Positions 17,613-18,110 of a DNA stretch of 64,000 bases are shown here, piece by piece. Origin of the DNA: Bacteroidota bacterium. Lineage in GTDB: Bacteria; Bacteroidota; Bacteroidia; B-17B0; Aurantibacillaceae. Below the pieces are notes generated by a model that made no database searches, was not told the DNA's origin, and saw only the letters and a list, made by a program, of their open reading frames with translations. Where the stretch lies: positions 1-64,000 of the forward strand of contig JAJNBG010000005.1 of the NCBI GenBank assembly GCA_021155905.1, in the 5' to 3' direction. The translations under genes and the position numbers were made by a program. The stretch's first letter is position 1; each line of letters begins with the position of its first letter.

Positions 17613-17693
17613 CAGATTGGTATATATTTTAAGAACAGACTAATTAATTACATAAAATTCAGCTAAAAAAAGAGGATTAATTGTGAATAACTA

Positions 17694-17723
17694 TTGTTTG
17701 TTTAACAAAATGTGTTATATTTG
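17694..17723 (+). promoter_or_regulatory. Bacteroidota-type promoter of rpsO-pnp
   Basis: TTG at 17694-17696 is followed after 19 bases by TATATTTG at 17716-17723, matching the TTG-N19-TAnnTTTG consensus of Bacteroidota. Transcription would start near 17730, about 30 bases before the rpsO ATG. The promoter looks intact although rpsO is broken. Confidence 0.7.
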
Positions 17724-17760
17724 TAGCCCTATTTAAAGATAACATTAAAAGAAGAATAAC

Positions 17761-17900
17761 ATGTATTTAACATCAGAAGTAAAGAAAGACATTTTTAAAA
17801 AACACGGTGGTAGCGATAAAAACACTTATTGGATTACCTGAAGAACACAGACATTATGCGTTACCGTGCGGTTATTAAAGTATTAGATATCCGTAAATAA
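17761..17900 (+). pseudogene. rpsO: Ribosomal protein S15 gene with internal deletion
   Basis: Translation from ATG 17761 gives MYLTSEVKKDIFKKHGGSDK plus a few residues, the start of S15, and hits TGA at 17839. The end of S15 (LLDYLKNTDIMRYRAVIKVL, then DIRK and TAA at 17898-17900) is present from 17826 but in another frame. With an intact length of 89 residues as in relatives, about 43 codons are missing, corresponding to a deletion near 130 bases. The 16S rRNA-binding middle of S15 is lost. The gene occupies its conserved place before pnp and retains a promoter and terminator. S15 is dispensable in E. coli but with growth defects, so either this strain lost it, another copy exists, or the assembly collapsed here. 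Confidence 0.88.
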
Positions 17901-17923
17901 TAATGGATTTTTGTTAAGATTAA

Positions 17924-17955
17924 GGGGCATTTCGGGAAATCGAAATGCCTTTCTT
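17924..17955 (+). terminator. Probable terminator after rpsO remnant
   Basis: A 9-bp stem pairs 17926-17934 (GGCATTTCG) with 17941-17949 around a 6-base loop and is followed by TTTCTTATTATT. It lies about 25 bases after the S15 stop and probably limits read-through into pnp. Confidence 0.65.
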
Positions 17956-17992
17956 ATTATTAGCGTTTCATTTTAACACCCGGATTGTCTCG

Positions 17993-18038
17993 TCGAGCGG
18001 AGTCGAGACGTCAAAAAAAGGTTCTCGACTTCGCTCGA
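17993..18038. repeat. REPIN-like inverted doublet before pnp
   Basis: Two 16-base words, TCGAGCGGAGTCGAGA (17993-18008) and TCTCGACTTCGCTCGA (18023-18038), are complementary apart from one G-U pair, with a 14-base loop. The GC-rich palindrome stands out in this AT-rich region. Inverted pairs of short palindromic words are the form of REPIN elements mobilised by RAYT transposases. The words are unlike the REP-like sequence in valS. In mRNA it would form a long hairpin about 70 bases before pnp. The rest of the 17613-18110 gap holds only the rpsO promoter, remnant and terminator. Confidence 0.7.
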
Positions 18039-18110
18039 ACTGACAGAAGAAATTAGAAAAACAAATATAAATCCGTACCGGAAACGCCGGTACACAAAAC
18101 AAAAAACAAG

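Follow-up and report, generated by a model that had tools for sequence, protein, structure and literature searches.

A 130-base internal deficit in rpsO of a draft Bacteroidota genome is very probably a reconstruction error

Results

The rpsO–pnp locus

The window, that is, the whole stretch of 64,000 nucleotides analysed here, contains the rpsO gene, encoding ribosomal protein S15, followed by pnp (Table 1). Relative to every congener whose blastn alignment could be read across the gene, rpsO at 17761–17900 lacks 130 bases, or 43 codons plus one base, and thus its two arms are out of frame. With the S15 protein of congener G005 (89 aa) as a tblastn query, residues 1–22 are found at 17761–17826 in frame 1, and residues 66–89 at 17826–17897 in frame 3. 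Since both arms match at 100% amino-acid identity, chance is excluded as the source of these matches. The blastn alignments with congeners place the break at 17826/17827, with a one-base overlap and with the partner coordinates in the congeners 130 apart. The join is seamless, and there is no N in the window. As assembled, rpsO yields only a short peptide followed by a stop. The 3' piece differs from that of G019 at seven nucleotides, none of which changes an amino acid.

The sequence-only reading had described this gene as carrying an internal deletion of about 130 bases, with the first 22 and the last 24 codons of S15 kept in different frames and joined somewhere within 17821–17830. The description is accurate to the codon, the deficit being exactly 130 bases by the congener alignment and the break lying inside the suggested interval. 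The same reading took the promoter and the terminator to be preserved, in agreement with the leader being 95–98% identical to that of congeners and with the strong hairpin after rpsO. The latter, obtained by folding 17905–17965, has an energy of −21.5 kcal/mol (z −4.6), and none of 200 shuffled sequences is as stable.

In the closest congeners the leader together with the first codons (17664–17826) shows 95–98% identity, versus 81–90% for pnp; the higher conservation of the leader would fit a regulatory function, for instance predicted autoregulation by S15. Between rpsO and pnp, at 17984–18050, there is a short interspersed element (TCGTCGAGCGGAGTCGAGACGTC...GGTTCTCGACTTCGCTCGAACTGACA), which matches several other sites in the genome and in many congeners. 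A chimera of two species was considered and rejected, since the two flanks of rpsO find their matches in one and the same set of congeners, with synteny to G005 running on at either side.

Table 1. Features of the rpsO–pnp locus and lesions of the same type in other contigs (C1, C34) of the assembly
Feature	Location	Strand	Basis or remark
rpsO leader/promoter region, intact	17664..17760	+	17664–17826 95–98% identical to closest congeners
rpsO 5' piece, S15 codons 1–22	17761..17826	+	nucleotide-identical to G003, G004, G005, G016, G017, G019
Junction, 130 bases absent vs congeners	17826..17827	.	1 bp microhomology, T
rpsO 3' piece, S15 codons 66–89 and stop, other frame	17827..17900	+	100% aa identity to residues 66–89
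Hairpin after rpsO, probable terminator	about 17921..17955	+	fold of 17905–17965
pnp, intact, 714 codons	18111..20255	+	ORF; full-length aa identity to congeners up to 96%
rpsI (S9)	C34 31785–32073		95 bases missing, out of frame, both ends kept
rpmA (L27)	C1 27114–27300		71 bases missing, out of frame
serS	C1 27464–27600		80 bases missing, out of frame

S15 in related genomes and elsewhere in the assembly

A full S15 scoring above the family cut-off is present in 54 of 60 relatives, and an intact rpsO of 89 codons is found at the same place in 15 congeners. Among the named relatives for which sequence upstream of pnp is available, most carry a complete S15 at that position. Otherwise, one gene is truncated by a contig end, some contigs stop at pnp, and in distant Bacteroidales-type genomes S15 was not found in the stretch fetched upstream of pnp. 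Contigs end inside rpsO in the congeners G008 and G009, and no rpsO match is seen in G001 and G012, the pnp contig of the latter stopping at the start of pnp. Of the named relatives, those nearest to the window are without exception metagenome-assembled genomes (MAGs).

The rpsO deletion was observed in no relative compared, and all congeners that could be read through the gene have it intact. The comparison with the closest relatives that the sequence-only reading had proposed thus gives an unshared deletion; a deletion common to the relatives was rejected, as none carries it, and sharing by at least one relative, expected for a genuine loss of uS15, is not observed.

The only match of the Pfam S15 model in the assembly is the rpsO remnant itself. 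Further, when the rpsO gene of a relative was used as the query, it was matched by the two arms alone, with nothing significant for the middle, and hence the excised segment is absent elsewhere in the assembly. Replacement by another copy of rpsO, one of the options named in the sequence-only reading along with a search for a full S15, is therefore excluded within the assembly, with the proviso that the absence of an intact S15 applies to an assembly that is 93.9% complete and itself has no match for rpoC.

Other damaged and missing genes

The assembly is a draft of 4.06 Mb in 67 contigs. Apart from rpsO, three genes, rpsI, rpmA and serS, are broken in the same manner (Table 1), their protein families being confirmed. 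At all four junctions, the arms are intact, 71–130 bases are lost, and the microhomology is 0–1 bp. Moreover, the assembly contains no match for S2 (rpsB), S6 (rpsF), L2 (rplB) or RpoC, all of which the congeners have. Thus the translation and transcription machinery in this assembly is not intact outside rpsO. The sequence-only reading saw no further decay, which is correct for the compared parts of the window, but not genome-wide. No cell is viable if it lacks RNA polymerase beta' or seryl-tRNA synthetase, and damage to serS and rpsB would not be tolerated.

Several contigs end in, or next to, genes of the same kind. C15 ends in rpsG and C61 starts in rpoA, and queries with the congener locus show that the S10/spc/alpha stretch between them is absent. 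At its end C34 carries the first 23 codons of rpsB, and C35 starts with the last bases of the same gene. C1 starts in rpsF, where 89 bases are 100% identical to G005, the neighbouring sequence being 76% identical; the start of C54 lies just past this rpsF piece, beside rpsR. C7 probably starts in rpmE, judging by a weak L31 match. The faults are thus concentrated in conserved single-copy translation genes, and contig ends fall in the same gene class, as expected for a MAG artefact.

Two further contig starts were noted: that of C2 adjoins a DUF3276 gene, and that of C40 a gene resembling a cold-shock protein gene.

These observations bear on the possibility that the middle of S15 was deleted recently and in reality, and that the cell lives with 30S subunits devoid of S15, similar to the rpsO deletion strains of E. 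coli. The lesion is clean, with a 1-bp microhomology as in a spontaneous deletion, and there is no second S15 in the assembly. Further, S15 is dispensable at a cost in E. coli, as the sequence-only reading had stated: the rpsO deletion is viable but cold-sensitive (Bubunenko 2006, as cited in PMC10931766 and PMC7096426). Since S15 loss is tolerated there, it is not impossible in itself, but here it is not the economical reading. Such an accident would have to have struck rpsI, rpmA and serS as well, and the reading leaves the absence of rpoC, rpsB, rpsF and the S10 operon unexplained. Moreover, no congener shares the lesion, and the 3' piece shows no sign of relaxed selection on rpsO, because all its changes relative to G019 are synonymous. 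Given that rpsI, rpmA and serS are equally cut and that rpoC, rpsB, rpsF and rplB are unmatched, the recent loss proposed in the sequence-only reading is very unlikely.

The 30S platform, for which S15 is the nucleating protein, also hides the anti-Shine-Dalgarno tail in the class to which this genome belongs. A free-living Bacteroidota species truly devoid of S15 would build the platform (bS6, bS18, bS21) with no protein to nucleate it, and separate assembly faults would then account for the other lesions; we consider this very improbable.

Control comparison with G005

As a control, 414 kb sampled from the assembly were compared with 497 kb sampled from G005, covering about 120 orthologues. 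In this comparison 108 orthologues were intact and 13 were flagged: the four lesions described above, rpsG, rpsB and rpoA at contig ends, one gene lying where a fetched stretch ends, and others, which have no out-of-frame deletion and look like ordinary divergence at gene ends or within a variable region. Out-of-frame internal deletions were thus seen only in rpsO, rpsI, rpmA and serS, all of them translation genes; as the sampled contigs were partly picked for bordering missing ribosomal genes, this is not a genome-wide lesion rate. The reverse comparison flagged six genes, with no out-of-frame deletions in G005. Conserved genes that are intact on the same contigs include groEL, rpsL, rpsR, rplI, tsf and pnp.

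The control is relevant to another explanation, namely, that minority molecules, either a population variant or chimeras formed during DNA preparation (for instance, by whole-genome amplification), were chosen by the assembler. Amplification chimeras and rare deletion alleles also produce seamless joins with low microhomology, and the junctions fit this explanation equally well. However, random accidents would not hit translation genes only (four lesions of four in about 120 orthologues), nor would they end contigs in the same gene class. Hence such an origin is as unlikely as the recent deletion.

Discussion

Very probably (we put this at roughly 94%), the 130-base deficit in rpsO arose through faulty reconstruction of a metagenome-derived draft genome and is not a biological feature; most likely, the organism carries a normal rpsO of 89 codons. 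The lesions are ascribed to assembly because RNA polymerase beta' and seryl-tRNA synthetase are indispensable to a cell, and similar damage to several genes of this sort in one assembly indicates reconstruction as the common cause.

The error might have arisen as follows. Within the genus, different species have nearly identical genes for the translation machinery, and sequence shared between co-occurring species would be the trigger. At such genes the contig usually ends in this assembly, and sometimes the two unique flanks are joined directly, with a loss of 70–130 bases of the conserved gene; the join would be made by the assembler or at a gap-closing or bin-reassembly step. In rpsO, the 72–81 bases that lead up to the breakpoint are identical in five congeners, and this shared stretch of leader and first codons is the likely trigger. 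The deleted part could be supposed to be the most conserved part of rpsO, but it is not: the mean identity between congeners is 86% for the deleted 130 bases versus 95% for the 5' arm. Therefore shared sequence does not fully account for the trigger.

Several points count against an artefact: the rpsO join is seamless, free of repeats and of N, the deleted part is not the most conserved one, intact conserved genes are situated on the same contigs, and published work holds binning more than assembly responsible for missing ribosomal genes (PMC9723686). Repeat-mediated collapse was rejected, as there is no direct repeat at any of the four junctions; simple collapse is thus not the mechanism. Thus, of the assembly collapse suggested by the sequence-only reading, the assembly error is the best-supported option, but not the usual collapse at repeats.

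Ribosomal protein genes, rpsO included, are often missing from MAGs, and binning is blamed for this more than assembly; rpsO, rpsB, rpsF, rpsI and rpmA are listed among those with modest tendencies to be absent (PMC9723686). The genome considered here is similar to those MAGs in that a near-complete draft is deprived of ribosomal protein genes for technical reasons. It differs in that the published cases are absences of whole genes, mainly caused by binning, whereas here there are also out-of-frame excisions inside genes and within contigs, and hence a fault related to the absence of genes from MAGs, but different from it. A literature search for this exact assembly fault returned nothing usable. 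The likeness to the E. coli rpsO deletion, as cited above, is that of a genome without functional S15; that deletion, however, was engineered in an otherwise intact genome, whereas the present assembly also has further essential genes damaged or absent.

The case warns against inferring gene loss from one draft genome of this type. Where 70–130 bases are excised seamlessly and out of frame from an essential conserved gene, the result mimics a clean pseudogene, with no N to mark the join. Such excisions are recognisable by their clustering in translation genes, together with contig ends in the same gene class.
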